A stretch of 64,000 bases of DNA, taken from NCBI RefSeq assembly GCF_019649055.1, contig NW_026570440.1, forward strand, positions 1-64,000. The letters run 5' to 3'. The translations under genes were made by a program, and so were the position numbers. Positions within the stretch are counted from its first letter, which is position 1, and the number at the start of each line of letters is the position of its first letter. The notes beneath the pieces are model-generated. The model ran no database searches, was not told the origin of the DNA, and saw only the letters and a list, made by a program, of their open reading frames with translations. Positions 32,268-54,716 of this stretch are shown here, in pieces. This DNA is from Paramacrobiotus metropolitanus. Taxonomy: Eukaryota > Tardigrada > Eutardigrada > Parachela > Macrobiotidae.

Positions 32268-33605
32268 TGCCTCTGGGGGGATGCCGAGCTCCTGTGAGGC
32301 TGGACACACTCCCGAATCCACGAGAAGACGACGGTCGCCAGTGTCTGTGTGTGCTCAAAAGAAAACATCAAATTCCTTATTCCATTTTATCACATCAATT
32401 CCATAAAGGCACAATTCCATTTAATACAATGTAAAATAAAGAGATCCAATTATAAAAATACTATCAAATCATTAGGAACAGATCAACAAAAGTATTAATC
32501 AAATGTAGACTAGGATCCTCCATTTCTGACTCGTAAAGGTCACAGGTCCTGTCCACCGTTTTCCGCACTTTGGCCCATTCCGCTCTGTTGAGCAATCCTG
32601 CGCATCCATAATGCGACTTCATCACAATCAGCTTGAGAATCGGGTGCGTATCAAGTACGACTTAGGAATACTGCTTCAATCTTTGGAATAAGGTGCGTAT
32701 CAATTGTACGACTTCAAATGAGATCCATAAAAGGTCATGGAGGGACGTCGTGTAGACAAGCGTAGTTCGCTTCCTCCCTGGTAAAGGTCATCCTTTATTG
32801 AGATGATCCGTTGAGCTGTGCGACTCATCTGGGTTAATGGTCCCAAAAGGTCATGCGACTTAGATTCCGATACGGTGACTCTGTTGGGCAATTGATGATC
32901 CCAAAGGTCATCCGACTTTTCTTCAAACTTCCATTAAAGGTCATGGAGGGACTTAGCCAATTTTCTGCGGCTTTCAAGCACTTCTTTGCTTGCCTCTCTG
33001 GTAAAGACTTGATTTGACCTTTCCGTCGCACATCCAACTTCAACATGCCTCGAGCGGCCAGAGTGCCGGCAAGTCTTGTTCGCCGCTTGTGCCGCTTGTG
33101 GCTTACGTTATTACGAAATCCGGCTTGGTTACCGTAGTTTTCTCGTTTTAATTTTGTCACTGAATCGCTTAAAAGAGTGCCGGCATAGTTTACCGTAACA
33201 ACTCTAATGAGGCCGGCTGGTTGCCGCATTAAGTTAACCTCATCAATATTCCACCTGTTGTCTTTCTCTTTTCGCCGCTTGTGGCCCTTTCGTCTTCAAG
33301 AGATCCGGCTTGATTACCGTCGTTTCTCTTGTCAATTTATAACACTGAATCGCTTAAGGAGGAGAGCCGGCTAACTGCCGTAACTACTCCCTTGGGGCCG
33401 GCTTTATAGACCGAATCAATTTCAACCCCAATAACACTCCACATGATTTCTTTTAGGCAATTCTGTGCTATAAACGCTGCAAACAACAAATACACAAATA
33501 CAATTAATGTTAACATGTCACATATCACGCCCTTTATACAACACCATTTTTCATCTTTGTGACGTACCGACAAAATGCCGTAGACGTCCTTTCAATAGTG
33601 TGATC
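32268..33605 (-). other. Giant element 3' non-coding region with octamers and a 185-bp repeat
   Basis: Holds about six AAAGGTCA octamers between 32535 and 32942 on the + strand and one in the opposite sense near 33014. A diverged tandem repeat of about 185 bp follows (units from about 33090 and 33275, marked by CCGCTTGTGG, CCGGCTT and TGAATCGCTT). No clear polypurine tract precedes the 3' LTR; the purine-rich strand here is the opposite one (CTGGGGGGATG). Confidence 0.6.
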
Positions 33606-33998
33606 CTAACGATCAGCACTATTCCATTTCATTTGAATCGCCCTCGCCATCTCTTGGCGGGCGTTTCTTGGCACTTTCGGGTTGATTACGGTCAGATGTT
33701 CGATCAATTGGTTCAGTTGAATCAACTTCCATGACCTTTGACGGGTCAACTTCTCGCTGGCCACGACCTTTTCCTTGACGGCTCCGCTTAACCGCCTCAA
33801 GTCGATGGCGTGCGTCATTTTCTTCCAGTCGTAATTTCGGTTATCAGGGTCGCTGGCCAATCGACGTTGCACATCAGCGAGATTATCCCGAAGCTGCTGG
33901 TTCCGTATACCGCGTCGTCCCATCTGGTTAGGAGCGCGTTCCGAGCGGTCGCTTTTCTTCACCAGGAATTCATCGATGTACGTTTCAACTCCGTCCAC
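33606..33998 (-). CDS. Giant element ORF m: 130-aa basic helical protein
   Basis: Last ORF before the 3' non-coding end, ATG at 33998. Highly charged, helical (QQLRDNLADVQRRLASD, AVKEKVVASEKLTRQRSW). It may be the C-terminal part of ORF l shifted by an indel. No domain recognised. Confidence 0.45.
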   Translation of the reverse strand: MDGVETYIDEFLVKKSDRSERAPNQMGRRGIRNQQLRDNLADVQRRLASDPDNRNYDWKKMTHAIDLRRLSGAVKEKVVASEKLTRQRSWKLIQLNQLIEHLTVINPKVPRNARQEMARAIQMKWNSADR

Positions 33999-34074
33999 TG
34001 GTTCGACGTAGTCACTTCCCAGGAATCTTTGATCTTATTGACCCTTTCTTCAACTTGGGAGGCATGGCGCTGTA

Positions 34075-34923
34075 TCAAGTTGCCCTTTCCATTCGTGTCT
34101 TACACTTTTTCAGCGCCTTTCGAGCTGTATGCGCTATGCTGATATGTTCCATCGGTTGTCCCAATTTAGCGACATGAGCTCGGAAGAACGGTGGAATGTC
34201 GTCCTTCATAGTATTAGACACCAATTGATTCTGTGTCTTGTAATGTGCCAGTCTCGCGGCAAAGACCTTTTGCCCCATCCTTTTTGCGGCATAGTCCTTA
34301 GGATCCACCTGTAGTCCTATCGATGCTCTTGCTGCATGCAACTTGAAGGCTGGATTCACATGTCGTAAAACGTACTGAGCCACATATTCTTGTCGTTCGG
34401 GATAATCTGTGTAATAAAATTGTGTCATCCCAATTGGGTCAGTCGTATCCAGCGGCACATCCAATAGACTCAAATCCACTAAACTGTGTAGCCCATTCCG
34501 GTGGATAGGGAGATAACAATCTCGCGCAGAGTCGCGAGGGATGTATAGTCGATGGAATTTTCCTTCTTCCACTTCCTGTTTAATCTCTCTCGCATATCCT
34601 GAGTCAAGTAAGAATTGGCGCAGCTGATTCAGTATCATACCGATCTTGTTAGCTTCGGCCGAATCCGACTCTATTCCGAAGTATCGACAAATTTCAACTG
34701 TTTGCTCGTCAATATCATTCATATTATATTCCATATCGATGATATCCGGTTGTCGGTTATTGAATCTGGAGTTCTGTCGCTGTTCAGCCTGGCGACGATT
34801 ATCCGGTTCACGAGGACCTTCTGATTCACGTCGATCTCCTGATTCGGGCTGCGACGGTTCGTTACTCGCCGGTGTAGCCGGTTGAAGGTCACTATCCAGA
34901 ATCACATTTCGTCGATGGGTCAC
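34075..34923 (-). CDS. Giant element ORF l: 282-aa, folded-looking
   Basis: Overlaps the end of k by 32 nt in another frame. After a disordered N terminus it shows a compact, low-repeat region (VEICRYFGIESDSAEANKIG, FHRLYIPRDSARDCYLPIHR, FYYTDYPERQEYVAQYVLRH). It looks like a real globular domain, possibly a capsid-like or replication protein, but I cannot assign it. The start used is GTG; the true start may lie upstream by fusion with k. Confidence 0.55.
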   Translation of the reverse strand: MTHRRNVILDSDLQPATPASNEPSQPESGDRRESEGPREPDNRRQAEQRQNSRFNNRQPDIIDMEYNMNDIDEQTVEICRYFGIESDSAEANKIGMILNQLRQFLLDSGYAREIKQEVEEGKFHRLYIPRDSARDCYLPIHRNGLHSLVDLSLLDVPLDTTDPIGMTQFYYTDYPERQEYVAQYVLRHVNPAFKLHAARASIGLQVDPKDYAAKRMGQKVFAARLAHYKTQNQLVSNTMKDDIPPFFRAHVAKLGQPMEHISIAHTARKALKKCKTRMERAT

Positions 34924-36349
34924 GTTTCTTGAGACGTTTCCGCAATCGAGCTGGTCCTTCCATCAAGTCATCTTCTTGTACGACACTCACAATTGGATCC
35001 ACTACATGAACCATTGACTCCACCCGCTGATACTTTGGGGGTGAATCTTCCCTTTCCGCGCTCGATGACCTTTTACTCGCGCCAGATTCGAAACTCGCAT
35101 AATACTTGGTTCGTTCTTGCCATCTCTTATCGTGTGGGTCTGGTGTTCGGTTTCGCGTATGTTCGCGTCTTTTATCCCATGACCTTTCAGGTGTTGACAT
35201 TCTGACATTGCGGTTACGGAATGCAACTCCCATCGGCACCTAATGCCCTTGCTTTTCAGGTTCCGTACGGAATGTCTCCGCACGCCGTTTTTCTTCTCTT
35301 TCCCTTGTCGCTGCCAGAATCTTGGCTGTATCAATCTTCCGCTGGATGGTCATTTCTGTTATTTCATCTCCGTGGCGCACCCATCCTCTTCCGCCGCGGT
35401 AATCCCGGTCGCGAGAGCGTTCGCGTAACCTTTCAGTACGGTACTCACGTGTCCTTTCACGAGAGTGTTCACGTGACCTTTCACTCCGTCGTTCCGAAGT
35501 CCATTCATGTTCGCGTGAATGTCCGCGTGACCTTTCTCTATGCGGAGGCGATCGAGGTCGAATAAAACCTTCGTCCCGTTTGAAACTTCTGAGCGCCTGC
35601 AGCACATCGCTTTCAGTTTGGCGAGATTTTCGTAATTCGTCCATACGTCTTTCCACTTCCTTCTTTATGTATGGTGCCGGCGCGAATCCGTCTTGCAGTC
35701 GTTTTTTCTCCCGCAACAGCACTTTTAATAACTCGTCTGGCATAGCGGCTGGATCTTTCGTTAACGTTTCGATTTGAATGATTAGGGACTGACGTGTCAG
35801 ATGCACTTCTTCTTCATTAAGGCTGGCTGTAGGGGGTACAGCTGAACTCGATGAACTGGGCAGCGCCTCTCGTGCAGCCTGTTCACTTGCTCTCTTATTT
35901 TCCGCATTAATTTTCGCGCGGATTTCATCCTCCATTTGCTGAACTCGCATCTTCTCTTGATCTTCTTCAAACTTCTTCCGATATGCGTCTGTTTGTGGAC
36001 ATTTCAACGGCTCCAAGGTGTCATCCCAACCAGGTTCATTGTTCCGGATCGCTTCTCGATAACGATCTTCGAATAGCATTCGCTCTTCTACTGGGATGCT
36101 GCCGTAATTTCTTGCGCTTATCAAGTTGCGGAAGACGTCCAGGTTCCCAGGTTTGGCTTCCGAGATCCCAACGAGTGAAACAATATGTGGGTCCTCCAGT
36201 TTGTGAATGCATGTATAGCACGGGAATTTCTTATCAACCTTTTTGTTATTCCGTAAACAGTTCGGACACTTTGGGTTATAGCCCGTAGACCGATCGATAT
36301 CTGCCGTCGTTCCTGGACGTTTAGAAGTGGCTTGACCTTTCTGTGCCAT
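34892..36349 (-). CDS. Giant element ORF j/k: Cys4 motif and Arg/Ser/Glu-rich protein
   Basis: ATG at 36349. Near the N terminus a CPNCLRNNKKVDKKFPCYTC motif (CX2C, 12 residues, CX2C) looks like a small zinc finger. A coiled coil follows (RVQQMEDEIRAKINAENKRA), then an RS/RE-rich tract like that of splicing factors (SRGHSREHEW and similar). The frame ends at a single TAG (35240-35242) and remains open for another 115 codons, so j and k form one frame split by a stop. RNA binding is plausible; this is inference. Confidence 0.58.
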
Positions 36350-36703
36350 CTTTTCGCTTCAACCTGCAATTATAAAACAATCCGTCATAGTAACCTTTTC
36401 CACGTCAATCTTTTCCATTCCTATCCATATCATGGCTTTTCTATCATTTTTACGCCTATTCCGCTACTGAGCTGAGACTTTCCTAGCTCCTGCTGCCCCT
36501 TTCTATCACTGTAACGTGGTGACCTTTCTCACGTTATCAGCACTTTCTGACTACTGTGACCTTTTCTATTAGTCTTATCACTGTTCAAATTAAACTCTTC
36601 ACGTTCCATTCCCGTAACACTTTCTCTTTCGTTTTTGTACTGTTTTATGCTTTTTCTGTAATATGCAGGGTTCATTACTCGCTGCATATTACACTCGTCC
36701 CGT

Positions 36704-38656
36704 TTACTCGGATTCCTTCGCCGGTGGTTTGTACGGCTTGAAGTCGATTCGACCATCTGGATTAATATGAAGCACTTCGTCTGCGATCAAGGCTTCGACG
36801 GCGTTCTTAATCCACTCTTTATCACTTTCAATATTCAACTCTCCCAATTCATAATTGACGGCCATGAAGTTCGAAAGGTCATTCCATGACGCTCCATTGG
36901 TACCGCCAATGGCGTCCAAAGCCACGTCTGTGATGGCTATCTTCCAGGCCTCCAGTTCCATTTTCAGTCTGGGCGTTCGTTCCTGACCCTGGTTCGGAAG
37001 GTAGTAGACGACTTTTATGTCCTTGTTGTATTTACATCCCAACTTTCCTTCCTTATATGCTCGTTTCAGGGCTCGTTCAGTCATGTTGAGTGACGACCTT
37101 CCGTTCGTATTTATTGCCACTTGTCTTTTCAAGTCTGTACCGAGCATTTCTTTTTCTCGAATGATCTGGAGCGCAGCCTGGACTTCGTTCCATGTACGAT
37201 TGTTCACGTCCAATGCTGGTCCTAGCGTGTAATCTGTAGCCTCCTTTCTTGGCGTACCGCTACTCTTCTGTGAGGATGCCGAATCCGTTGGGTCAGTTGT
37301 CGCTGTTTCGTCAATCCTCAGCTTTGCCAATGATCCTGATGATGACCCCGCCGATTTCGGTTCTGCTGTCTTCTTTTCCTCTTGTGGCAAAGTCTCATGA
37401 CCTCCCACTTCACCTGCTGACTTCGATCGCTTTTTCTCGAAGACTTCCTTTAGTGGTATGAACAATGATTTCTGAAACACCTGGCGCGCAGAGGCCGCTT
37501 CTGCTTCTGCCGCTGCTTTGTCCATCGGGAGCATGACCTTTTCTTTCTCCCGCTTTTCTCCCGAAGTCTCGTGACCTTTCGGTTGAACTTCTGCGGCGGT
37601 TCCAGATGTTTTCTGACCTTTTGACTGTTCGTCTTTTTCTGTCACAGTTCCAGAAGGAGCCGTTACTGTAGTATCGTCATCGCTTCCCGATTCCGAGTCC
37701 ATTGGTCCTTTTTTCCTCGACACTTTCGGGACTTGTGATTTCAGCCTCGCCGCTTCTTCTTCAGCCGTTTTCCGTGCAATCTGATCCAATATCGGAGTTG
37801 ACGGGTCTCCGCTCAATGGAACTGTGACCTTTTCCGTGTCCTGACTGTCAGACATATGACAGTGGATCTGTCTTTCCGGTGGTATCAAACCAACTCTCGT
37901 GTATCGGATTGGATATCCTTTATTTGCGTTTGTTGTAGCAAGGACATTCTGTTTAATCAGTCTCGGCAGTACACGCTCAGTTGCCGTATCGATTTCTTTT
38001 ATCATTCCGATTCCATCGTTCCGAACTGCGTTGATGTATTGGCTGATCCGGTGACTCGTTGACCCTAACGGGCTTGTCATCCCTGCGATTGCCCTTTCTA
38101 CTCGCATTGGGACGGCTTCGTTCGGCGTTGTCAGCGCTTTATCCGAACTAGCTGGTCTGAACAACTTGGCCTCATACGAAAAACTCCGGTGCTTCTGTAT
38201 AAGTTTTCCTGCGTTCCGCGCGAATTCCAATACGACGTCGAACTTTCGTTTAGTGAAGCTACGACGTTGTTTCTTCAAATATGTCTTCAGGCCCGCTTTG
38301 AATTTGGATGTCACCGATGCTGTTCTTATTCGTGTGAAATTTTTCTCAGCTCCGTTATACGCGTTGATGATTTCATCGACCGTGGTCAAATTATCATCAT
38401 CTGGACCATCAAATTCTTCATCCGAGGTGAAGTCCAGTTCGCTCTCTCCATCTGGTTCAGTATAATTAACCAGCGCCAATGCATCGATTTTCGTAACTGT
38501 CTTGCCCTTTCCTTTGGTTTTAACGGGTTCGCTCTTTGCTTTTTTCCCTTTATCCAAAGCCTCCGCTAGACTTCTTGGTTCAGTAGTCCTTGATCGTGTC
38601 GTTTTCGAATCCGTATGTGACCTCGCACTAACCGTCGAAGTGCTTGGAAGGCTCAC
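36704..38656 (-). CDS. Giant element ORF i: 650-aa protein of unknown function
   Basis: ATG at 38656, 28 nt after the end of ORF h. Acidic N-terminal stretch (DFTSDEEFDGPDDDN), a helical central domain of about 200 residues (KFKAGLKTYLKKQRRSFTK and following), a disordered Lys/Glu/Ser middle, and a globular-looking C terminus (WNDLSNFMAVNYELGELNIE). Also open to its end without lesions. Composition and AAAGGTCA content match the rest of the element, so it belongs to it rather than being a captured host gene of recent origin. Confidence 0.6.
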   Translation of the reverse strand: MSLPSTSTVSARSHTDSKTTRSRTTEPRSLAEALDKGKKAKSEPVKTKGKGKTVTKIDALALVNYTEPDGESELDFTSDEEFDGPDDDNLTTVDEIINAYNGAEKNFTRIRTASVTSKFKAGLKTYLKKQRRSFTKRKFDVVLEFARNAGKLIQKHRSFSYEAKLFRPASSDKALTTPNEAVPMRVERAIAGMTSPLGSTSHRISQYINAVRNDGIGMIKEIDTATERVLPRLIKQNVLATTNANKGYPIRYTRVGLIPPERQIHCHMSDSQDTEKVTVPLSGDPSTPILDQIARKTAEEEAARLKSQVPKVSRKKGPMDSESGSDDDTTVTAPSGTVTEKDEQSKGQKTSGTAAEVQPKGHETSGEKREKEKVMLPMDKAAAEAEAASARQVFQKSLFIPLKEVFEKKRSKSAGEVGGHETLPQEEKKTAEPKSAGSSSGSLAKLRIDETATTDPTDSASSQKSSGTPRKEATDYTLGPALDVNNRTWNEVQAALQIIREKEMLGTDLKRQVAINTNGRSSLNMTERALKRAYKEGKLGCKYNKDIKVVYYLPNQGQERTPRLKMELEAWKIAITDVALDAIGGTNGASWNDLSNFMAVNYELGELNIESDKEWIKNAVEALIADEVLHINPDGRIDFKPYKPPAKESE

Positions 38657-38683
38657 TTCCGATGCCTCCGATTCACGCGAAGT

Positions 38684-40843
38684 CTACCGTTTCGCTTTTT
38701 CGCGGATCTGTTTGTCCTTACGCTCTTTTGGCGTGAATGCAGAGATGACGATGGGGACAACTTGTTTCACTGCTATGACCTTTCCTTTGGGTTTTGACGG
38801 CTCTGCTGTAGCCGATTGGATAACTTTCTTTGAATTCGTAGGTGTCGATGACCTTTCTTCAACTTCGCCGACTGACTCGTCCAATATCTCAACATCATGA
38901 GACGCTGGTTCATCTCTTTTCTTTGATCCTTCCCTTTTCTTCATTCCGGTGCTTGTGCTATCGCTTTCATCACCGCTCTTTTTCTTCTTATCTTCTTCCT
39001 CCTGTCGTTTCTTCTTCTCTTCTTCTTCCCTTCGTTTTTTGAGGAAATCGCCTTTCTTAACCTTCTCGCGGTTCATAGCTTCTTCCAGTTTTGGCGCTTT
39101 CCTCGGTCTTGACTGCTTTTGAGGGCTTTTTGTGTTTCTCCGCCATTTCCTCATCTGAGTCTTCTTCTTCAGCTGAGTCCTCATCTTCCGACTCTGGTTC
39201 AACATCACCAGGTGGATTAAATGGGCGCAGTTTGGTTCGTCACACTGAAGGTGATCATGGCTTCCTTGGGCAATCTCGAGTACTCTTTGTAGCGAACGTC
39301 TGGCCCCTCCGGTTTCAGTTACGTTTGCCGATGTGCCCTGCGCCTCTTCCGTCTCTCCGGCTCCGCCTTCTTGTGCCGGGGGCTGAATTTCCAAGTGCGC
39401 TGTCTCTTTCAGCTGTCCCTGTGAGACGACCTCCCACAAAGGGTTTTTCTTGGCGTCATAAAACACCGTTTTGTACGATCCATCTTCCATTCGTCTTGTG
39501 AGTCGGAAATGCGCTTCGTCGATCTCCGCTCGATGCCTCATCATGCTGATCAATGTACTCGCTTGAACTACGGCATCTGTTCGGTCACTTTCAGGTATCA
39601 GATCCCATAGCTGCTCAATGGCTGCCTGATTCGCGGTTCGGGCGCTTTCCTCTGATACATCCCATGGAGCATATGGAATCGGGTCTCCTGTTATCGGATC
39701 AACTATCACTGCAGTTATGGTTTCCTGAGCTTCTCCGTTACCAGCAAAAAGTCTGAGGGTGACCTTTCTACTTGTCGCCTCTGTATATCTCAGGACCGAC
39801 TCATAATCATCTGACGATCGTTTCTTCGGATCTGGATCCGCCGTCGGTTTTGAGCGAGTTCTCTCTTTGGTCAACAATTTGCCGTCCGTTGTGTATGTAT
39901 ATGCCAAGTGGTCGTCATTTGTGCCCACTTTGATACGGATCCATGCATCTTCTTCAGTCGCAACTTTAGATACCACGTGTTTCAGCATCTGAATGAGAAC
40001 CCTTGGATTATGACGTTCTTCTGGGGGAATAAACTGTAGCGCCTCGTTGACTACCGTTTTTGACTCTTCCCCAATGGCATCCTTGACTGACCTATCCGCG
40101 AGGGGATTATACGAGTCGATCTCTTTGTTCGTTTTCTTATCGACTATTCGTGCCGTAACCTTTCGTTCTTTATGGTCTTCCCCAGTGTATTTGGCCGTAA
40201 AACTTCTGCACTTCGGGAATCGGATCTGACCTTCTGTTCCGGACGGCGTGGGTGGTACACTCTTTCTACCCACTGGGACTGGTCCTTGTGGCTTAACCGG
40301 CGGTGCTTTAGTCGTCGTGACCTTTTTGGTACGCTGCTCCTTTTTGTCAGTTTCTTTTGGGCTTGTCGTCGGTGGTCGTACTCTTTTTCCACTTTTCGCT
40401 GTCCCGCTAGACGGTTCCGTAACCGAACTGGTCCGTCCTCGTGTTGATCCTGCAGTCGAGCTGGCCCGTGACCTTTCTGCTCGTTCAGTTAATTCGGCAT
40501 CAATCTTTCTCTTTGTTGCCAACAGGTCCTCGTCCGTCATTTCATCGACCGGGGCGTCCTTTTCAGCTATTGGTTTGGATGGTCCCGCGACGCTGGTAGT
40601 CGGCGTCTGTCTTGTTTCTGGGAACACCTTGAGATATCTAAGGATCTTTTCGACAGTCTCCGGCCACCTTCTACCTTTTATTGTCGGATGATATTGCCAC
40701 ATCGATGCAACTTGGATTGCGTATTCCTTGCGCTTTGCTTCAACCTGTTTCGTCTTATCTTTCATGGCAATGTGGCATGGTTTGATAACAGCTTCCAAGC
40801 TGATTAACTTTCCATACCATGCGTGTTCGTCTTCAACTCGCAT
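38684..40843 (-). CDS. Giant element ORF h: 719-aa protein, two similar central segments
   Basis: ATG at 40843, but the open frame runs upstream to overlap ORF g. The N-terminal 80 residues look folded (WQYHPTIKGRRWPETVEKIL), then comes a Ser/Thr/Lys-rich linker. Two central segments share a layout: VTARIVDKKTNKEIDSYNPL and ITAVIVDPITGDPIPYAPWD, each followed by a helical block, suggesting an internal duplicated domain. The C terminus is a highly charged Lys/Arg/Glu coiled region. No known family recognised. Confidence 0.6.
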   Translation of the reverse strand: MRVEDEHAWYGKLISLEAVIKPCHIAMKDKTKQVEAKRKEYAIQVASMWQYHPTIKGRRWPETVEKILRYLKVFPETRQTPTTSVAGPSKPIAEKDAPVDEMTDEDLLATKRKIDAELTERAERSRASSTAGSTRGRTSSVTEPSSGTAKSGKRVRPPTTSPKETDKKEQRTKKVTTTKAPPVKPQGPVPVGRKSVPPTPSGTEGQIRFPKCRSFTAKYTGEDHKERKVTARIVDKKTNKEIDSYNPLADRSVKDAIGEESKTVVNEALQFIPPEERHNPRVLIQMLKHVVSKVATEEDAWIRIKVGTNDDHLAYTYTTDGKLLTKERTRSKPTADPDPKKRSSDDYESVLRYTEATSRKVTLRLFAGNGEAQETITAVIVDPITGDPIPYAPWDVSEESARTANQAAIEQLWDLIPESDRTDAVVQASTLISMMRHRAEIDEAHFRLTRRMEDGSYKTVFYDAKKNPLWEVVSQGQLKETAHLEIQPPAQEGGAGETEEAQGTSANVTETGGARRSLQRVLEIAQGSHDHLQCDEPNCAHLIHLVMLNQSRKMRTQLKKKTQMRKWRRNTKSPQKQSRPRKAPKLEEAMNREKVKKGDFLKKRREEEEKKKRQEEEDKKKKSGDESDSTSTGMKKREGSKKRDEPASHDVEILDESVGEVEERSSTPTNSKKVIQSATAEPSKPKGKVIAVKQVVPIVISAFTPKERKDKQIREKAKR

Positions 40844-40908
40844 GTGGATTCTGTAAAGGTCACGGCATTTCCGATTGAAGTCGCGGATGGCTTCTAAGTC
40901 GGCTTCCG

Positions 40909-41697
40909 TCAGTTTTTCCTTTTATCCACTATTAAATTCAGGTTCGGGTCATCATCTCTCAAGTCCAAAGGAAGCTTCGGTGCGTATTCATGTATTGAGG
41001 GTTCGCCTGTGGGCGTAAGCCGTAAACCATCTGGTCCAGTCTGATCCAAATTGGGACCCAGTGACGGTAAAATGCCTCTCGGTCGCCTTCCTCCTCTGTG
41101 TGGCGAATTACGATGAGGGCGCTGCGCTCCAAGTTGCTGCGGTGTTCTCATGCGAGGCGCTCCGATGTCCGACAGTGACAAGCCTCCCGTCTCCGGAAAA
41201 GGTGGTAATATCGGGGATGACCTTTGTGATCGCGCTGGAGTTACCATCATTCCGCCGAATCCTCCCTGTCCCGTAAATCGGCTCGGTGTAGTCTGTTGCG
41301 GTGGCGGCATCAACATTCTTGCCGGTCCCATTATCACCTGTGAGGGTCCCGACGGTGGAGTATACGATCCCGGGTACGGTTCATAAGGGGTGCCCGTTAC
41401 TTGTCCCGAATACTGGGTTCCGGCAGGTGAGCCGTGGTGCACCCAGCTAACCGTGTCCTGGTAATTCATCTGCTGTCCTGGATCGTGATACACGTAATAC
41501 CCTTGGTCGCCGTAGTAACCTCCTTGAACTGTTCCAGGTTCATTCTGAGCCGTTCCCGCTGACGACGTCGATCCCTCACCGTATGAGGTGTCGTAACCGT
41601 ATTCACCTTCCATTCTTATAGGTGTCGATGCTTTTAATGGGTTTCCAATACTTTCCGAATCAGAATTATCCGAGTTTTGCCGTTCCAGTCTTTCCAT
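40909..41697 (-). CDS. Giant element ORF g: Gly/Pro/Tyr/Gln-rich 262-aa protein
   Basis: First ORF 3' of integrase, ATG at 41697. Prion-like composition: Gly, Tyr, Gln, Ser and Pro (VQGGYYGDQGYYVYHDPGQQ), then proline-rich with Met. It resembles neither a typical env nor a known enzyme. No signal peptide or transmembrane segment is seen, which argues against an envelope gene. The next ORF's open frame starts at the end of g in the -1 frame. Role unknown. Confidence 0.55.
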   Translation of the reverse strand: MERLERQNSDNSDSESIGNPLKASTPIRMEGEYGYDTSYGEGSTSSAGTAQNEPGTVQGGYYGDQGYYVYHDPGQQMNYQDTVSWVHHGSPAGTQYSGQVTGTPYEPYPGSYTPPSGPSQVIMGPARMLMPPPQQTTPSRFTGQGGFGGMMVTPARSQRSSPILPPFPETGGLSLSDIGAPRMRTPQQLGAQRPHRNSPHRGGRRPRGILPSLGPNLDQTGPDGLRLTPTGEPSIHEYAPKLPLDLRDDDPNLNLIVDKRKN

Positions 41698-41825
41698 TAA
41701 CTGTGCTTAGCTTCTATAAAAATGAAACAATAAAGGTTAACTTTTTTGCACAGTGGTGACCTTTCTTTTTGCCTTCCCAACTCCTATTTTTAATCTAATG
41801 TGACCCCTTATTTATGTCTATGTGG

Positions 41826-43876: not shown

Positions 43877-43928
43877 TTCTTCTTCATCACCTTGCAGGTT
43901 AACAATGCGGACTGTCGCTGTACTGAGT

Positions 43929-45023
43929 TCATTCCAATCCTTTGATGACCTTGCAGCGTGGTAACGGTTTGTACCTCTTTTTCGTCTGTTTTGGGAATCT
44001 CAGCAGTTTGATCGGACATTCGTTCAACGCTTGTGCCACTTTATCCGTTTCCCAAAGGTCATCTCTATTCTCCGCTCTATCATCAAGTCCTGTGACCTTT
44101 CCATTCTGCATTTTAGATTCCGCGTCAAGTCCGGTGACCTTTAAGTCACTGACCGTGGGCAACCAGCTTTTCACTCGGTTCACTTTCGCTTCGTTTTCAG
44201 CCGACTCATTCGCCGTAACTGAAGTGACCTTTAATCGTCTCTCTCTCTGTTCCACCATCTGCAGGAACAGCTGTCCAATTTCAATTGCTGGTTCTTTCGT
44301 GTCAAATTCCTTCTTGTAGTCCTCGAAATTTGGAATCTCATCAAATTCCTCCTCTTGGCATGTTGGCCCTTCAATCGGCGCTCTCGATAACGCGTCCGCA
44401 TTGTCACAGTACTTTCCCGGTTTGTATTCAATTTTAAACTGATGACCTTGTAATGCCATTGCCCATCGTGTCAAACGCGGGTTCATTCCTACTTTATTCG
44501 TTTCTGACCTCAGCAAGTTCGTCAGCGCCTGATGATCCGTCCTTACGGTGAATTCTGCGTAATCGATATACGGCTTAAATTTCCTGACAGCGAACACTAC
44601 TGCCAGAAACTCCCATTCCGTTACACCGTAATTTTTCTCCGCTCTATGTAGGACGCGACTGGCGTACGCGATCGGATGTCCATCTTGTGACAGTACGGCT
44701 CCGATTCCTTCTTTGCTCGCGTCGCATTCAATGACGGTCGGTTTTGCGGGGTCAAACTTTGCCAGTACTGGACCTTCACACAACAACTTCTTCAAACTAT
44801 TGAACTCTTCTTCATGTACTGGAGTCCAGTCCTTTTTCACGTGTTTATCTTGTCTCAGCAACTCATACAAGTGGCAAGTCTTCTGTGCGTATCCCATTAT
44901 GAACTTGCGATAATAATTCGCCAGTCCAAGGAATGACCTTAACTGCCTTTCTGTTTGAGGCCGTTTAAATTCTGAGACCGCGGTGAGTGACCTTTTCGGG
45001 GTCCATTCTGATTCCATCTTCAC
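43929..45023 (-). pseudogene. Giant element pol: connection and RNase H
   Basis: Continues pol after the 4-bp duplication. The RT thumb/connection (RQLRSFLGLANYYRKFI) is followed by RNase H with its acidic residues in VIECDASKEGIGAVL, GVTEWEFLAVVFAVRKF and TVRTDHQALTNLL, then NADALSRAP. The tail of about 140 residues leads toward integrase. AAAGGTCA copies here appear as KVT tripeptides. Confidence 0.85.
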
Positions 45024-46815
45024 TGAGTATGTGACCCAGAAATCCCATTTGTCTCATTCCGAATTCGCATTTCGTTGGTTTTATTGTGAATCCCGCTTCG
45101 ACCAGGCTCATTAGGACGTTTCTCAGGTTCTGCATGAAGATCGCCCAAGTCTTTCCGGGGAAGATAACGTCATCAATGTACCCGAAAACGCAACCCTTTC
45201 TTTTTGCTTTCGAGAGAACTTTATCCATACACAATTGAAATGTTGCTGGTCCATTGCAAACTCCAAATGGCATTCTTTTAAACCGGTACATTCCATCTTG
45301 TGTTACAAAGGTCGTCTTATTGATTGACGCTGGGTCCATTGGAACCTGCCAGAATCCACTTTGTAGATCCATTTTTCCGTAATATTTGTTGCCTGCGCAC
45401 GCGTCGAGCAACTCATCTGGGTTCGGTAGCGGGTAGTTATTCTTTCTCGTCAGCTTATTAAGCATGATGTAATTGACACAAAATCTGGTTCCCATTGTTC
45501 CGTCGCCATTTTTCTTTATCGCAAATACGACTGGGAAACTCCACTCGGCGTCTGACGGCTCAGTTACATCTTGTGCCAACATCTCTTCGATATGCTTCGT
45601 TATAAACTCGCGGCCTGTCCAACTCGTTCTGGCCGGGTTGCATTTAACTGGTTTCGCATCTCCCGTATCGATTACGTGGGTGACCCCTTTCACATCTCCA
45701 TACGGTTTCTTTGATGTGGGTAAGACCTTCCAGAATTCCCAGAACGCGTTATACACATCATTCTTCTGTTCTTGGGTAAGGTCAGGTCCTAATTTCAAAT
45801 TTTCGATTATCTGTGTAAGTTCAGCTTTCGTTGTATCATCCACCTCAGGGTCCTCGAGTACGTTCTTTACTGTCCCTGCGTTGACCTTTACATTTTCCAT
45901 ATGTTCATACAGCTCAACGTAGCCGAGAAGCTGATTTTTCTTCACAATCCGGTATTTGCTACTATGATTCGCAATGACGATTTCGAAGTATTTTCCTCTG
46001 TGGTCAGTCACTCCTGCCAACGGTTGCACTTCAGTTTCCACTTGTGGGACCGGTGTAAACATCAGCTTGTTTTGGGCTGGTGCATATTTTCCCATCTTGA
46101 CCTTTACCCTTGTGCAGTTTGACGGTTTCAATTTAATTCTTTGATCACTGTAGACTTTAATCACATCTTTCGACATTCTGTCTTTTTCCACTTTCAACCT
46201 TCTGACTTTAATATCCTTTTCTTTTTCCTCATCTACTTCGTCATCCTCATCCAAGTCCATTAAATCCTCTTGCTCCGAAAGGTCACTTACACCTGAATCT
46301 TCCGAAGTTGTTGAGTTATCACTTGAACTCATCCACTCTGAATCTGAGTTACTGCTCTCATATTCTTGTACAGTAGCTTGACCTTTGTTAGCTTTTTCGA
46401 GTGGGCGTTCGTCAACTCCTTCGTCTTCTGATGAAAGATCACTTTCGTTTTCCCGCGAATCGCTAAGTTTTTTCGCTTTCGAATTTTTGAGCAGAGGTTT
46501 GTCCCCTTCTTTTGCCTTTCGTCCGTTTTGTGCGGCAACTCTTGGGTGACTCCTTGCTACCCGGATTTTCGTTGGTGACCTTTCTGATTGTTCGGAGTTT
46601 GCCCTTTCTTCGTCCGATTTTGACTTTTCCCATTCATTTATTTCTTCAAGGCTCGTTAATGGCTTTTCGGTCAACTCGACCGGCGGACATTCCTCACCGT
46701 TATCGAGTGACCTTTCCCCGTTTTTTGCCTCCGTTACTGGGTTTTGTTGTTCATTCGATATCCTCTCAACTTCCTCTTTGAACTTCTTCCACATTTGTCC
46801 TCTATCTGTTAACAT
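44965..46815 (-). pseudogene. Giant element pol: acidic N-terminal region and reverse transcriptase
   Basis: Listed from the first ATG (46815), but the frame is open back to 46920. An acidic, Ser-rich N-terminal part of about 220 residues precedes a linker typical of Gypsy pol. Reverse transcriptase follows: THVIDTGDAKPV entry motif, RFCVNYIMLNKLT, GKMDLQSGFWQVPM, RMPFGVCNGPATFQ and the catalytic GYIDDVIF. I see no aspartic protease D-T/S-G motif before it. The frame is broken near 44990 by a 4-bp TCAC duplication, after which the connection to RNase H continues in another frame. By conserved motifs the RT would be functional apart from this lesion. Confidence 0.85.
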
Positions 46816-46874
46816 CCGTGCGATGTCGAAAGCCGACTTTGAACTTTCTTCCGTTTCGTTCGATCCTCCTTCGA

Positions 46875-47600
46875 CTATCTCTTCAACTGGTTCTCTTTCC
46901 CTGTTTCTTTTGCTGTCCCCTTATCAACTTCATCCTGTTGAACTGTTTCGTAACCTTTAGGTCGTTTAGGACCAACAAAGATGCAGTTTGCCATCAGCTC
47001 TTCGGTGACCCATTCATCATTTGGAATCGTTTCATACATGCACCATGTATCACCGCCTCGTTCGGGGTAGTCCACTCCATCTGGATCTGGTGCAAAGGTC
47101 ACCTTTTTCTTTTGCATTAATCCCGGTAGCCTTCTTTTCCGGGTTACTTGTAGTTCTCGCATCTCTTTTACGTCGAATTTGGGGATTTCTTCCTCGAATT
47201 TCTTCCAGTATTTCTCGAATGCTTTTTCGTTTCCCTCTTTTAACGCGTTGTAGTATACTTCAAGTGATTCGTAGACAGGTGTACCAAGTCCTGCCGGGAA
47301 GATAATCGTCCTTCCTTCACCTTTATACATGTGGTTCACACGGAAGTCCCAGAAAAGGTCAACTCTCGCTTCTTCCCACATTTCTCCTTCTTCGGTCATC
47401 TCTTCTATCTCTCGTTCAAATCTTCTTTCTGTTGCTACCGGATCGAGAGGATCTTGGATTCCTTTCTCGACCCGTTGCAACCAATGGTTTAGCCATCTGC
47501 CTCTTCCGATTATAAAACTTTCCACGCATGACAACCACGTTCGATATCTATTCCAATGATACCGTTCGATGTGTGGTTTCCACATTTCGTTTGTCCGCAT
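46875..47600 (-). CDS. Giant element ORF d: Trp-rich 241-aa protein, candidate capsid
   Basis: Same frame as ORF c after a single TGA. Helix-rich and well-ordered by composition: many Trp/Tyr/Arg (HIERYHWNRYRTWL, WLNHWLQRVEKG, VDLFWDFRVNHMY) and no low-complexity tract until the tail. Lying directly upstream of pol, it is the best place for a capsid domain, but I cannot match it by eye. Its end overlaps the open pol frame by about 44 nt (46877-46920) in the -1 frame, the usual gag-pol arrangement of Gypsy elements. Confidence 0.55.
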   Translation of the reverse strand: MRTNEMWKPHIERYHWNRYRTWLSCVESFIIGRGRWLNHWLQRVEKGIQDPLDPVATERRFEREIEEMTEEGEMWEEARVDLFWDFRVNHMYKGEGRTIIFPAGLGTPVYESLEVYYNALKEGNEKAFEKYWKKFEEEIPKFDVKEMRELQVTRKRRLPGLMQKKKVTFAPDPDGVDYPERGGDTWCMYETIPNDEWVTEELMANCIFVGPKRPKGYETVQQDEVDKGTAKETGKENQLKR

Positions 47601-47663
47601 GATGCTTTTCTCTTCCTTTTGGGCATGACCTTTAAGGTCTGCTAATGCGGCGTTACATTTCGG

Positions 47664-48368
47664 TCATTCTGAAAGGTCATCTCGAGATGCATTTTCACAA
47701 CATTCTGCACATTCCCATTGTGGTTGTATTCTGCACGGGTCTTCAAAGTAGCCGTGATGACAACCCCTAGCTCGCTCATCTGGAGTTAGTGTCCTTTCAC
47801 TCGCTCGCGGTTTAACTTCTTCCTGTGCTTTAGTATCTTCCTCACATTCAGTTTGGGTCACGCTTTTGTCCTCAGAGGATATGTCGATGACCTCTGGTTC
47901 TTTTTGTGTTCGGTGACCTTTCAACTGTTCGAGCGCCTTGTTACGAATTTCACTTGTGAACATCTGCTCCTCTTCGGCAATTCGTTTCAATACCCGTAAC
48001 CTTTCACTCTTTTTATCCTTCCACACTTTAGCCGTCTTTATTCCCAGTGCCTCTGGTACTGGGATAGGCTTTGCCCACTCCATGTCTGGCACAAGCGATT
48101 GTTTCGCTGCAACTGCCGCTTCTTTCTGTGTTGCAATTATCTCTTCAAGCGTTGGTGACCTTTCGGTAGCAGGACGTGGTTCGAAAAGGTTCGAAGTACG
48201 CTCTGGTTCCAAGTTCTCAACTGTCGCTGGTGACCTTTCGTCTTCCTTTCCCAGTGCCTCTGGTGCTGGGGTAACTTCTTCAACACATTCTTTTTCTGTG
48301 GCTCCTTGTTTACAGTCATCTGCGATCATACTTCTCCCGTCCGGGAGAAATATGATCGCCTCATCCAT
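47664..48368 (-). CDS. Giant element ORF c: 234 aa, Cys/His-rich C terminus
   Basis: ATG at 48368, overlapping the end of ORF b by 8 nt. Acidic and Glu/Lys-rich, with FEPRPAT and PEALG modules that recur elsewhere in the element. The C-terminal end CHHGYFEDPC and CAECC could bind a metal ion. The frame stops at TGA (47664-47666) and is open again straight into ORF d, so c and d may once have been, or may still be, one protein by readthrough. Identity unknown. Confidence 0.55.
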   Translation of the reverse strand: MDEAIIFLPDGRSMIADDCKQGATEKECVEEVTPAPEALGKEDERSPATVENLEPERTSNLFEPRPATERSPTLEEIIATQKEAAVAAKQSLVPDMEWAKPIPVPEALGIKTAKVWKDKKSERLRVLKRIAEEEQMFTSEIRNKALEQLKGHRTQKEPEVIDISSEDKSVTQTECEEDTKAQEEVKPRASERTLTPDERARGCHHGYFEDPCRIQPQWECAECCENASRDDLSE

Positions 48369-48468
48369 GTCTGGCGCAAGCGGTTCCTTTTTCCTGTCGT
48401 TGACATTTTTGACCTTTCCACTTCCACTTTTCTTCTCCGGTGCCTCTGGTACCGGAGAAGAAAAGTGG
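48043..48468 (-). other. Cluster of strong hairpins inside coding sequence
   Basis: 48424-48468 is a perfect 18-bp stem with a 9-nt loop GCCTCTGGT. 48043-48063 and 48250-48270 carry the same loop on 6-bp stems (CCCAGT with ACTGGG or GCTGGG). 48322-48359 is an 18-bp stem with one mismatch and a 2-nt loop. The shared loop with altered stems suggests RNA structure, across ORFs b and c. Confidence 0.75.
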
Positions 48469-50130
48469 CTTTTCTTTATTTGTTCGCTTCTCTGTCGTCA
48501 TTTTACCACCGGTGGCCTTTTCCACATTCTGCACTTGCTCATTTGCTTTTGTGCTGTGCACGTGACCTTTAGTCACTTTGTTTACCGTTTGATGGATCAG
48601 TTCCTCTTTACGGTTTTCATTTCGCTTATCTCGCAGCTTCTCGATGACTTCGGTTGTTATTTGGTCGGCTTGTTTCAGTTCATCTGCTTCACTGTTTTTC
48701 ATCTCATCTGGTGACCTTTCGTATGTAACCATGTCATATCCTTTTTCGGTCATCCATTGCATCACTTTTGCAGATACTTCATTATTCGTTTTCGTTGGGT
48801 CAATTTGCGAAGACATCCCGTCTGTTCGGGCTGGTGACTTGTCGTTAGCGTCCTTCTGTAGTGCTTGCGATAAGTCCCGTGACCTTTCGACTGCGTTACT
48901 CTGTTGCGTTTGCGCCATCTCGTTTGATCGTTCTTTTTGTTCGTTTTCCGCTAAGTCCTGTGACCTTTCGTTGCGCTTCATGACAAATCCGCCGCCCGTC
49001 AACTTTTGTATGGGGACTTTTTCTCCATAATTCGGCGGTTTATCCTGTGGCGGAGCGTTACGTGAGTAAATCCAATCGGCGAATGTCTTCTTATATTCCT
49101 CTGCATTGAATGCTGGGACTGGGTTCGGTGACCCTTGGGCTGGTTTCCCGGTAACCAACTCTTCTAATCTTTTCCTCTCGTGTTGCGTTCGCAATTCTTG
49201 CATGTCCCAGTAATCTTCTTGTGACATTCGCGCTTTCTGTTTTGCTTTTGGCGTCACGGGTATCCACATTCCGTGATTCCCATTTGGTCTGTAGGCCACT
49301 TTTTGCCACCTTTCCTTCTGTTGCAGTGTTACTGCGTCCACAAGTGAGTCGTCGGAGTTCTGTGCCATTTCATTATTCTTTTGCTGCGCTGTTCGCAGTG
49401 TCAAGTCTGTTTCTTGACCTTTTAACAGGACGCTGTCGCCGTGACCTTTAGCATTCACACTCGCTCCTTGACCTTTCACTTGGACTTTTCCAACGGAAGG
49501 TGACCTTTCATCTTTACTACTAACGGTGATATTCTGCTTAATCCATTCTTGCCTTGCCAGCTTCTCTGCTTCGTCTTCTGAACAATTCCAAAACTTTGGC
49601 TTTGGCTCCCCGTAACAATCGCAACTTGGCTCATTCGCCTTATCGTTTTCTGCCAAAAATTTCCAAAATTTCGCATGCTGCTCGTTTTCTTCTTGCGCAG
49701 TATCGTTCTGCGGTTTCTTCTGATTCAGCAGCGCCTGTTTAATCTTTGCGTTCCGTTGTGCGCGTCGTTGCGCTAACACTTCTTCGCTGCAATACGGTGA
49801 CCTTTCATTTTGCTGCACTTTTTGCAGTGTCGCGCTACCGTCACGACAATTTCCACTCGCAGTACCATTCTGCGGTGACCTTTGGTCCCGTTGCGCGTTT
49901 CCACTCGCAGTACCATTCTGCGGTGACCTTTTGTCCACTTGAACGTTTCCACTCGCAGTACCATTCTGCGGTGACCTTTGATTCTGTGACGGTATCCCTA
50001 TAACCGTTCCATTTCCTTTTTGCGAAGACGACATCCATATAGCCGTTTCTCTTTGCTGTGGCGGCATCCATCTAGCTGTTTCCTTTTGCGCTGACGGCAT
50101 CCATATAGCCGTTGCAGTGGTCACATTCAC
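48361..50130 (-). CDS. Giant element ORF b: 589-aa low-complexity protein
   Basis: ATG at 50130. The N terminus has three 12-residue repeats of TAIWMPSAQKE type, then three 16-residue repeats containing RSPQNGTASGN. The body is rich in Gln, Asn, Lys and Glu and looks disordered, with a short Cys patch (CDCYGEPKPKFWNC). ERSP, KGH and KVT tripeptides recur because the DNA carries AAAGGTCA in different frames. It overlaps ORF c by 8 nt. I recognise no domain. It could be part of an expanded Gag. Confidence 0.6.
   Translation of the reverse strand: MNVTTATAIWMPSAQKETARWMPPQQRETAIWMSSSQKGNGTVIGIPSQNQRSPQNGTASGNVQVDKRSPQNGTASGNAQRDQRSPQNGTASGNCRDGSATLQKVQQNERSPYCSEEVLAQRRAQRNAKIKQALLNQKKPQNDTAQEENEQHAKFWKFLAENDKANEPSCDCYGEPKPKFWNCSEDEAEKLARQEWIKQNITVSSKDERSPSVGKVQVKGQGASVNAKGHGDSVLLKGQETDLTLRTAQQKNNEMAQNSDDSLVDAVTLQQKERWQKVAYRPNGNHGMWIPVTPKAKQKARMSQEDYWDMQELRTQHERKRLEELVTGKPAQGSPNPVPAFNAEEYKKTFADWIYSRNAPPQDKPPNYGEKVPIQKLTGGGFVMKRNERSQDLAENEQKERSNEMAQTQQSNAVERSRDLSQALQKDANDKSPARTDGMSSQIDPTKTNNEVSAKVMQWMTEKGYDMVTYERSPDEMKNSEADELKQADQITTEVIEKLRDKRNENRKEELIHQTVNKVTKGHVHSTKANEQVQNVEKATGGKMTTEKRTNKEKPLFFSGTRGTGEEKWKWKGQKCQRQEKGTACARHG
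49853..49996 (-). repeat. Three 48-bp tandem repeats in ORF b
   Basis: Units begin at 49853, 49901 and 49949 with CCACTCGCAG on the + strand. Each encodes 16 residues and each contains one AAAGGTCA octamer. Confidence 0.85.
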
Positions 50131-50189
50131 TGCAGTACCATTCTGCAGTGGTGACCTTTCCCTTTTATCCGGTGGTTTAGGGTCGGGAC

Positions 50190-50219
50190 GATCAGTAGGC
50201 TCACCGGTGCCTACTGATC
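50190..50219 (-). other. Perfect 11-bp hairpin between ORFs a and b
   Basis: GATCAGTAGGC and GCCTACTGATC flank an 8-nt loop TCACCGGT. The hairpin sits at the 3' end of ORF a, upstream of the ATG of ORF b at 50130. Confidence 0.7.
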
Positions 50220-50732
50220 TTGCCCGTTTCCCTGAACCGGCGCCCCACCTTGTTGCACGCCTTGCACATTTCCTTGCACATTTCCTTGTTGTTGTCCAAT
50301 ATCGTTTGCCGGGTTAGGATTCTGTCCGTTGCCATTGTTGTATTGGCCACCACCCTGTTGGTAGTTACCTTGGCCGCCTCCATTGTTCTGGCCTCCTCTG
50401 AAATTTCCGCGGCCGAAGCCTCTGCCCCTTCCTCTGAAGCCGCCGCGCCCAAAGCCACCACGGCCGTAGCCGCCATTCTGGCCACCGCCATTTCCATTTC
50501 CGTAGTTCCCGTTTCCATTCCCTTGTTGGTTTTGGAAGTTTGCTTTGTGCTGATACCATTGGGTGATGAGGTCATATCCGTTATTCACCGCTAGGCGCCA
50601 AGCACCAAGCCCGCGCAGTCGTTGCCACTCGTTGAAGGCGAACAGGTTCGGGTTCTGGTCCGGTGGTGTGTTGGCGAACTTGCATCCTTGTGTTTGGTGA
50701 TTGCCACTGTTGATCACTTTCAACACTTTCAA
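50211..50732 (-). CDS. Giant element ORF a: RGG-rich, possible nucleocapsid
   Basis: 173 codons open on the - strand, with no ATG at the start, so the beginning may lie in another frame or exon. The N-terminal third has a folded-looking motif (FAFNEWQRLRGLGAWRLAVNNGYD). The rest is Gly/Arg/Asn/Gln-rich, with RGG/GRG boxes (GGFGRGGFRGRGRGFGRG), then Gln/Asn-rich. RGG boxes bind RNA, and spumavirus Gag uses Gly/Arg boxes in place of zinc knuckles, so a nucleocapsid role is plausible. That is inference. It is the first ORF after the leader. Confidence 0.6.
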   Translation of the reverse strand: MKVLKVINSGNHQTQGCKFANTPPDQNPNLFAFNEWQRLRGLGAWRLAVNNGYDLITQWYQHKANFQNQQGNGNGNYGNGNGGGQNGGYGRGGFGRGGFRGRGRGFGRGNFRGGQNNGGGQGNYQQGGGQYNNGNGQNPNPANDIGQQQGNVQGNVQGVQQGGAPVQGNGQDQ

Positions 50733-51009
50733 AGGTCACTGTCGATCACTTTCAGATCGTAAAGGTCACTAAAATGGGTCAATTTGATCAATTCCAACTT
50801 TTTGGTAAAGGTCACTTTTCAAAGTCAAAAGTCAACTTCTGGTCTCAAAGGTCACTTTCCAGCTCAGTTTTCAAGTTAAAGGTCTATTTCCAGCTCAATT
50901 CTATCAAAGGTCACTTTCTAGCTCGGTTTCGATCAAAGGTCACTTTTCCTTTGTCTGAACGTAAAAGGTCACTTCTCGACTCAATTCAAGTTTAAAGGTC
51001 AGTTTCCCG
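50731..51009. promoter_or_regulatory. Array of AAAGGTCA octamers in the giant leader
   Basis: About eight copies of AAAGGTCA (first at 50731-50738, last near 50993) plus one variant, spaced roughly 30-45 bp, all on the + strand and so antisense to the element. The octamer equals the monomer site of NR4A-type nuclear receptors. No ORF occupies the stretch. From here to the primer site (51010-51875) I see only the leader hairpins. Confidence 0.65.
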
Positions 51010-51562
51010 CTCAATTATCTCATCTTAAATCAAGTTTCCCCTTACGACTCGAGTTCAACGGAAAATCCCCATTCGGGTTGTTTACTTCGTTCTGATTGGT
51101 CCGCTAGCTCAAAATATTCAGTTCAAATTTCGGCCAATCACGGCTCAGATAACTGACCAATCACACTGAACCATTTAAATTTTATATTAGCCTGACGTCA
51201 CGGTCAACGGCCAGACATGCGCGCCGCGTGCAAAACTCCGCCTACTTCTACGCTCAGCTCAGTACGGACCAATAGAAATTGTCAATTTTACCAACTAGCC
51301 AATCCCGTAATTAATAACGGTTTTTCTACCTGTTAACCGTCCGTTCCACGGAAAAGTGATCCAGATGATCCAATTCTTCTCCACCGTCCGTTCCCGCGCT
51401 GCCGCTTTTCCGTAGCGGTTGTGCCGCCCGCTTTTTGTATGCTACTGTGCCGGCTGACTGCCTTAGCAACAGTAGTGGTGCTCTACTCCAGTTTGGAGGA
51501 GTCTGATCTGGTCTTTTCCGTGCGCCCCTTTTGGCGCTTCGCCGCTTGTGGCCCACGGCTTA

Positions 51563-51699
51563 GGCTTCGCTGAAGCCTTGCCGAGTATCAGTGACACCAG
51601 TGTAGGTCTTCGCTGAAGACTCTACACCGAAGAACACTGACGACTGAGATCTTGCACTCTTGCACAGCTAAGGAAACAGCACGGGTCTTCGCTGAAGAC
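51563..51699 (-). other. Three related hairpins in the giant leader
   Basis: GGCTTC-GCT-GAAGCC (51563-51577), then GTCTTC-GCT-GAAGAC (51606-51620 and 51685-51699, given on the + strand). The loop is constant, and the second base pair changes from G-C to T-A with both sides altered together. The middle hairpin extends with TGTAG/CTACA. The position just after the primer site suggests an RNA packaging, dimerisation or translation signal. Confidence 0.6.
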
Positions 51700-51875
51700 A
51701 CTGTACCGAAAACCAAAGCTGGTGGAATCCGCGTTCGGTTGAGGAAATTGCACCGCTTGTGGTGTGCGCTTTGCTGTCTATGCAGACCTGTGCCTTACTG
51801 GTAACAGAAAACACGTCGGATAACAGGCCAACTTTGCCTGACACAAATCAAATCAAATCAGAGAACCGCTGTCGG

Positions 51876-51886
51876 CTCTGCTACCA
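51876..51886 (-). promoter_or_regulatory. Primer binding site, initiator tRNA-Met type
   Basis: Directly after the 5' LTR the element strand reads TGGTAGCAGAG, complementary over 11 nt to the ...CTCTGCTACCA 3' end of animal initiator tRNA-Met. This fixes the inner LTR border and the orientation of the element. Confidence 0.8.
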
Positions 51887-53462: not shown

Positions 53463-53466
53463 CCTG

Positions 53467-54672: not shown

Positions 54673-54716
<44 letters not shown>

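Follow-up and report, generated by a model that had tools for sequence, protein, structure and literature searches.

Candidate NBRE-type nuclear receptor sites fill a giant Gypsy-type retrotransposon of the tardigrade Paramacrobiotus metropolitanus

Known NBREs, the monomer sites of NR4A nuclear receptors, occur once or a few times per promoter or enhancer, mouse SINE B1 (a short interspersed element) has few Nr5a2 sites per short element, and one exact short word repeated across coding frames on both strands is familiar from Chi and from bacterial DNA uptake sequences. The motif bound by Nr5a2, TCAAGG(C/T)CA, is described in passages of PMC11102866 as a retroelement-borne, AAGGTCA-type site of a monomeric orphan receptor that is targeted in the early embryo, and the gypsy insulator consists, in passages of PMC2374998, of 12 Su(Hw) sites in the 5' untranslated region (UTR) of that element. 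Burro of planarians and Ogre of plants are Gypsy-type long terminal repeat (LTR) elements that can exceed 20 kb and hold extra coding sequence, according to PMC6431247, the available text of which mentions no saturating word. Each of these features has thus been described separately, whether receptor sites carried by retroelements, host-factor sites clustered in the leader of a Gypsy element, or Gypsy elements of giant size; the literature searched, which comprised open-licence papers, yielded no element saturated with a single exact octamer through its open reading frames (ORFs). The present study concerns a 20.3-kb LTR retrotransposon of P. metropolitanus that lies within the window, a stretch of 64,000 nucleotides in contig C220 of the 169.8-Mb genome, and that is filled with the octamer AAAGGTCA (TGACCTTT when read on the opposite strand). 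We hold with moderate confidence that these octamers are NBRE-type candidate sites for a monomeric nuclear receptor of the host, most likely NR4A, that would keep the giant element transcribed. The element shares with the NBRE systems the exact octamer used singly and an NR4A ortholog in the host, while differing from them in that 73 copies, as candidate sites, crowd into 20 kb of a tardigrade element, inside ORFs as well. By description it resembles Burro and Ogre, and it differs from Chi and the uptake sequences in being a eukaryotic retroelement without a known role in uptake or recombination.

The first-pass annotation had claimed, from counting by eye, 65-75 octamers between positions 32268 and 51886, and the exact count agrees: 73 (22 on the forward and 51 on the reverse strand), against 0.94 in 200 dinucleotide-preserving shuffles (standard deviation 0.95, maximum 5) and 1.46 expected inside the element from an order-2 Markov model. 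The whole window holds 92 octamers where 2.87 are expected (maximum of 9 in 100 shuffles). The octamer is the commonest 8-mer of 32268-51886, and the runner-up once it is masked, GAAGAAGA, occurs 14 times. The word is also sharp. Its first base in the element is A in 73 cases against C in 2, G in 4 and T in 2. None of the 24 words with one mismatch occurs more than 6 times (range 0-6), and their total of 37, against about 25 expected, is far below 73. The base that follows is less uniform (C 43, T 17, A 11, G 2). The sites are distributed over three blocks, as follows.

50731..51001, plus strand: leader array of 8 octamers, 29-59 bases apart, all TGACCTTT on the sense strand of the element
33015..50159, minus strand: body, 59 octamers, 51 of them sense AAAGGTCA and 8 antisense
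32535..32943, plus strand: 3' region, 6 octamers, all TGACCTTT on the sense strand

Along the body the octamers follow no regular spacing and are placed much as a Poisson process would place them (coefficient of variation 0.96, Poisson mean 0.97). Octamers start at least 27 bases apart in the window copy and in the stretches of one of two comparison copies, C19, while 4 of 91 gaps are shorter in the other, C16; both copies were read in 10-kb stretches. The leader packs its eight octamers into 271 bp, and its units are mutually 61-95% alike across 19-31 bases, which suggests local duplication there. That density resembles the 12 Su(Hw) sites per 340 bp of the Drosophila gypsy 5' UTR (PMC2374998), and the octamers might accordingly be imagined as an insulator or boundary array at which a zinc-finger or receptor protein of the host blocks silencing instead of activating transcription. 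Such an array seems unlikely, however, since the body holds 59 of the 73 sites, the leader and the 3' region only the remainder, and the octamer, compared by eye, is unlike the Su(Hw) core (TC)(AG)(TC)TGCATA(CT)(TC)(TC) given in PMC2374998; the tardigrade element thus differs from gypsy in its motif and in having its coding body and 3' region filled as well.

The orientation of the sites bears on another alternative, already raised in the first-pass annotation, in which the octamer is an RNA signal scattered along the genomic RNA of the element, where it would serve packaging, stability or processing. Retroelement RNAs generally require packaging, and 51 of the 59 body copies are indeed sense AAAGGTCA, but base composition alone predicts a sense-to-antisense ratio of about 8.5:1 in the body, as observed. 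Composition favors the sense word in the leader (9.8:1) and in the 3' region (3.1:1) too, and yet all eight leader copies and all six 3'-region copies are reversed. Given the opposite orientation in these two blocks and the conservation of either orientation, with antisense body octamers intact in 6 of 6 cases in C19 and 3 of 3 in C16, the RNA signal has lost ground and we consider it quite unlikely, the more so as the genome-wide excess described below reaches DNA outside the giant family.

Ten of the 12 open frames examined hold octamers, the exceptions being 50211-50732 and 34075-34962. Counted by frame there are 45 sense octamers, 43 of them distinct, for the frames overlap in places and overlapping bases, including two octamers, count twice in the shuffle, third-position and peptide tallies. 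When the same proteins were re-encoded by synonymous-codon shuffling (n = 200), 5.0 sense copies remained (standard deviation 2.1, maximum 11), and the 8 antisense octamers in open frames compare with 0.2 in such shuffles. The sense octamers are spread over the three codon phases as 11, 20 and 14, and they account for all 11 KG[HQ] tripeptides and 20 of the 26 [KEQ]RS tripeptides, although for only 14 of the 49 KV dipeptides, so that the proteins of the element look shaped by the octamer. Because all three codon phases are used and the excess over synonymous shuffles is large, the word is maintained as DNA and not as protein, and on the same two results an origin in a protein motif is rejected. 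An origin in simple repeats is rejected for the bulk of the sites: in 70 of 73 no partner has flanks of at least 55% ungapped identity, and the exceptions are one group of three, which merges, and the partly similar leader units.

Comparison with other copies of the element points the same way. C19 and C16 hold 44 and 93 octamers in 20,000 bases each, and 45 and 44 of the 73 window octamers, respectively, could be aligned with them after removal of BLAST pieces with less than 80% identity, minus-strand pieces and pieces that overlapped a longer one retained. Intact octamers numbered 36 of 45 in C19 and 40 of 44 in C16, where 26.5 and 19.6 were found for neighboring 8-mers in the same phase; of 2,000 draws of such neighbors, 0.1% reached this intactness for C19 and none did for C16. 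With insertions taken as breaks, a stricter tally gave 36 for C19 and 38 of 44 for C16. Mismatches per base in C16 amount to 0-7% in the word, 5% at the next two bases and mostly 9-25% further out, and the contrast is weaker in C19 (0-7% in the word, 0-18% around it). Third codon positions had changed in 3 of 89 (C19) and 0 of 81 (C16) cases within octamers, in 32 of 254 and 40 of 233 within 12 bases of them, and in 552 of 3635 and 388 of 2039 elsewhere; with the two copies pooled, this is 3 of 170 in the word against 940 of 5674 outside the word and its flanks (combined Fisher P 9e-10). At fourfold-degenerate third positions, counted where codon positions 1 and 2 are unchanged, the corresponding figures are 1 of 36 and 0 of 32 in octamers, 14 of 114 and 10 of 82 in flanks, and 213 of 1434 and 138 of 730 at other sites (combined Fisher P 1.5e-4 for octamers compared with other sites). 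Sense body octamers were intact in 26 of 33 (C19) and 25 of 27 (C16) cases, those of the 3' region in 4 of 6 and 6 of 6, and those of the leader in 6 of 8 in C16. At the 3' end, five copies kept 30 of 37 octamers, against a fraction of 0.65 of other 8-mers; these were five of seven copies taken, since L004 and L006 (minus strand) gave nothing, and two of the five, L002 and L007, are identical with the copies C19 and C16. Taken as a comparison of sequences, these data show that the octamer is constrained as a nucleotide sequence, whatever its orientation or codon phase.

The octamers of C16 lie, in 46 of 93 cases, outside pieces alignable at 80% or more, including 23 in about 1.35 kb. That segment (L039, about 1747-3099) is an amplified array whose units differ while the octamer is kept, and octamer arrays with 36- and 60-base periods at C1:203504-205229 likewise have differing units and a kept octamer. 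One might ask whether the octamers are a by-product, either of the tandem spread of a repeat unit or of a protein motif that these letters encode by chance. Local tandem arrays do exist in the window copy (49850-49980 and 50845-50946), the leader units are alike, and three octamers of a tandem gene family of the host fall in a coding KVT motif. This explanation is nevertheless highly improbable, being largely contradicted by the synonymous shuffles together with the three codon phases, by the few changes at third codon positions, and by the dissimilar flanks.

As to what might read the word, the first-pass annotation had named it the monomer site of NR4A-type receptors, and this identification holds: the NBRE is AAAGGTCA, which NR4A2 binds as a monomer according to passages of PMC10419244, and the host has an NR4A ortholog. 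The available text of PMC12539977, a match for AAAGGTCA together with retrotransposon, gives in that context the definition of the NBRE only, and that of PMC12941274 contains no mention of NR4A, NR5A, FTZ-F1 or HR38. The genome of P. metropolitanus has 63 stretches that match the receptor DNA-binding domain profile PF00105, and the translated receptors appear, by our reading of their P-boxes and extensions, to include FTZ-F1, a second NR5-like, two ERR-like, one COUP-like, two RXR-like and one TR2/4-like protein. Two exons at C45:296815-297648 encode the DNA-binding domain of the host NR4A and share 83% and 76% identity with human NR4A1, and the best Protein Data Bank matches of exon 2 are NGFI-B (1cit), NR4A1 and Nurr1, ahead of RXR; the assignment stands on these two exons, the exon of the C-terminal extension not having been seen. 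Both in the element and genome-wide, AAAGGTCA occurs in its exact form and A is the preferred first base, as in the NBRE. The monomer site of FTZ-F1 and ERR, of the TCAAGGTCA type, has C before AAGGTCA, and its core CAAGGTCA occurs twice in the element against 0.9 expected, which also sets the element apart from SINE B1. FTZ-F1 or ERR as reader of the word is therefore disfavored by the scarcity of the C-first word CAAGGTCA, and NR4A is favored over them because A is preferred at position 1. The inverted pair bound by NR4A dimers (NurRE, TGACCTTT-n6-AAAGGTCA) is absent from the element, as the spacing of its octamers implies. Among the receptors of the host, NR4A is the best candidate reader that sequence comparison offers.

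The word is not confined to the giant element. It occurs 42,562 times in the genome (0.25/kb), while a reversed-word control occurs 15,522 times, and 20 pieces of 10 kb (L009-L028, 200 kb in all) held 28 octamers (0.14/kb) against 5.8 expected from an order-2 Markov model, an excess of about 4.8-fold. Only 5 of the 28 were in L025, a relative of the giant family, and 23 lay outside it. With 3.7/kb in 32268-51886, the element is neither matched by the genome frequency nor anywhere near a count of about 10, the outcomes that had been named as speaking against the first-pass annotation. Genome-wide, CAAGGTCA (6,332) stays below its reversed control (7,867), as do the C-, G- and T-first words together (19,908 against 26,821). 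Close same-direction pairs of octamers number 3,770 against 33 for the reversed control, more than the approximately 250 that, by our estimate, the higher density of single words would explain. Another 8-mer, TACGAGTA/TACTCGTA, is also strongly over-represented in the 200-kb sample (28 against 5.1 expected).

Because the word is better kept than its surroundings, these findings suggest that the element lures a host protein of the hormone-receptor type along much of its length. In the mechanism we propose, a giant Gypsy-type element would have accumulated receptor sites in its leader, in 10 of 12 open frames and near its 3' LTR, and a monomeric nuclear receptor of the host, probably NR4A, would bind them across the 20 kb. 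The bound receptor might form a platform that counters silencing and works as a distributed enhancer: the chromatin of the element would stay open, and transcription from the LTR would be driven in cells with active receptor, with the leader array working near the promoter and the sites in the coding region serving as the distributed enhancer. The receptor-binding platform proposed in the first-pass annotation is upheld in part and is the best-supported reading, given the DNA-level conservation in both orientations, the identity with the NBRE, the host NR4A and the preference for A, the last tempered by an over-representation of words with another first base in the genome sample. That annotation had mentioned neither that the element is an LTR retrotransposon, nor that all three codon phases are used, nor the genome-wide excess.

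Several observations weigh against the receptor reading. In the 200-kb sample the C-, G- and T-first words were 2.4- to 2.9-fold over Markov expectation (CAAGGTCA 10 against 3.4, GAAGGTCA 9 against 3.4, TAAGGTCA 9 against 3.7), and the first base is therefore less strictly specified in ordinary DNA than it is in the element. ERR-, NR5-, RXR- and COUP-like families bind AGGTCA half-sites, and other host receptors from AGGTCA-binding families could accept AAAGGTCA. Two one-mismatch words are clearly over expectation in the element (6 against 0.8 and 4 against 0.7), and, in our judgment, sets of transcription-factor sites are not usually this sharply defined. The body bias of 51:8, while fitting composition, leaves room for a strand-specific role, and the excess of intact octamers in C19 is moderate (P 0.001, matched neighbors). 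Finally, L025, whose DNA is diverged to about 65-70% identity, has 5 octamers in 10 kb, and where C16 octamers fall in pieces alignable with L025, 3 of 15 are intact there, two of them against one and the same L025 site. Saturation therefore changes, as these alignments indicate, between lineages and is not fixed in the wider lineage.

The coordinates given in the first-pass annotation, 32268-51886, are those of the inside from LTR to LTR and not of the whole element, which comprises the following features.

31908..52246, sense on the minus strand: giant LTR retrotransposon with Ty3/Gypsy-type pol, recognized by its LTR pair and the order of reverse transcriptase, RNase H and integrase
31908..32267, minus strand: 3' LTR, 98% identical to the 5' LTR
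51887..52246, minus strand: 5' LTR, 98% identical to the 3' LTR
31904..31907, with its mate at 52247-52250, no strand: target-site duplication TCCA, read from the sequence by eye
51874..51886, minus strand: probable primer binding site TGGTAGCAGAGCC, directly adjoining the 5' LTR
48361..50313, minus strand: open frame in the gag position, 14 octamers, no Pfam match in the scanned ORF 48361-50130
44965..46920, minus strand: open frame with reverse transcriptase (PF00078, Pfam)
43929..45053, minus strand: open frame with RNase H (PF17917/PF17919, Pfam)
41826..43613, minus strand: open frame with integrase core (PF00665, Pfam)
34075..41706, minus strand: five further open frames downstream of integrase, octamers in four of them (none in 34075-34962)

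The two direct repeats measure 364 bp with 6 mismatches between them, and the LTR ends were placed by eye from the TCCA duplications on both outer sides. Two LTRs with a short target-site duplication on each side, and reverse transcriptase followed by RNase H and then integrase in the Pfam matches, agree with a Ty3/Gypsy element. No Gag or aspartic protease was matched by Pfam among the ORFs scanned, and the ORFs in the gag position and the five downstream of integrase gave, as scanned, no Pfam family above cut-off. One of the latter (36704-38656) has a weak linker-histone match (E 6e-4, 20.4 bits, Pfam cut-off 22.4), perhaps due to composition. A repeated motif with GGTAGCAG and GTGGTTCGAAAA on the plus strand (42037-42164, 42371-42509, 48148-48194) partially resembles the primer binding site. 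The reverse transcriptase ORF has proteins of P. metropolitanus as its two best database matches, one with 91% identity over 52% of the query and the other with 97% over 37%, and the seven protein matches of the ORF 38684-40843 are all named P. metropolitanus (best 7,994 candidates scored). At least 39 further matches of the 3' end at 89-94% identity, among the 40 scored of 297 candidates, set a lower bound on copy number, and a pol protein 55% identical (P0003) marks a second family. The available text of PMC11071193, a paper on tardigrade transposable elements, contains no mention of Paramacrobiotus. About 3.5 kb that separate the leader from the gag-position frame in C16 (L040, about 2853-6418) are missing from the window copy, with the junction near 50706-50731, so the window copy may be internally deleted.

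Three smaller LTR elements of the window also carry the word.

5049..9496, minus strand: small Gypsy-type element with one octamer in each 114-bp LTR (5143 and 9477)
15885..20452, minus strand: small Gypsy-type element related to the preceding one, with one octamer in each 141-bp LTR (15993 and 20420)
53466..59869, plus strand: third LTR element, LTRs 99.5% identical

The LTR octamers of the first two occupy corresponding places. In the third, octamers at 53911, 53973 and 54096, between the 5' LTR and the first listed ORF, and at 54288 and 54444, inside that ORF, are TGACCTTT on the sense strand, and two more (55488 and 55539) have the opposite orientation. The tandem gene family mentioned above spans 1926-30713 and 60338-60725, with copies about 66-84% identical in BLAST pieces and a conserved exon; two scanned ORFs had no Pfam match and three had no NCBIfam match. 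Its octamers at 3894, 13174 and 22939 were dismissed as regulatory evidence, falling as they do in the conserved coding KVT motif. The distribution among elements is also relevant to the idea that the giant element itself encodes the protein that recognizes the octamer, with a role such as compaction, segregation or protection of the element's DNA copy. The dispersal of sites over the whole element and the several ORFs without an assigned function would suit such a binder, but the proteins scanned show no DNA-binding family besides integrase and the below-cut-off linker-histone match, and the smaller elements carry the word in LTR or leader while it is in excess genome-wide, which makes an element-encoded binder improbable.

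Under a bolder, tentative interpretation, which we rather doubt, the exact octamer would be a licensing word of the genome: a nuclear receptor of the host would mark the chromatin that carries it to stay active. LTR elements, and above all the giant one, would have evolved to write the word through their coding DNA at a cost to their proteins, as self-marking in an arms race. Arms-race self-marking by such a word was found described for no retroelement in the open-licence papers searched. If the receptor reading is true, the element would show that enhancer function can be spread along the entire length of a mobile element, through its coding DNA too, and would offer, in naturally and highly repeated form, an assay for a tardigrade nuclear receptor that acts as a monomer. 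The question of what keeps giant elements transcribed would then become testable.

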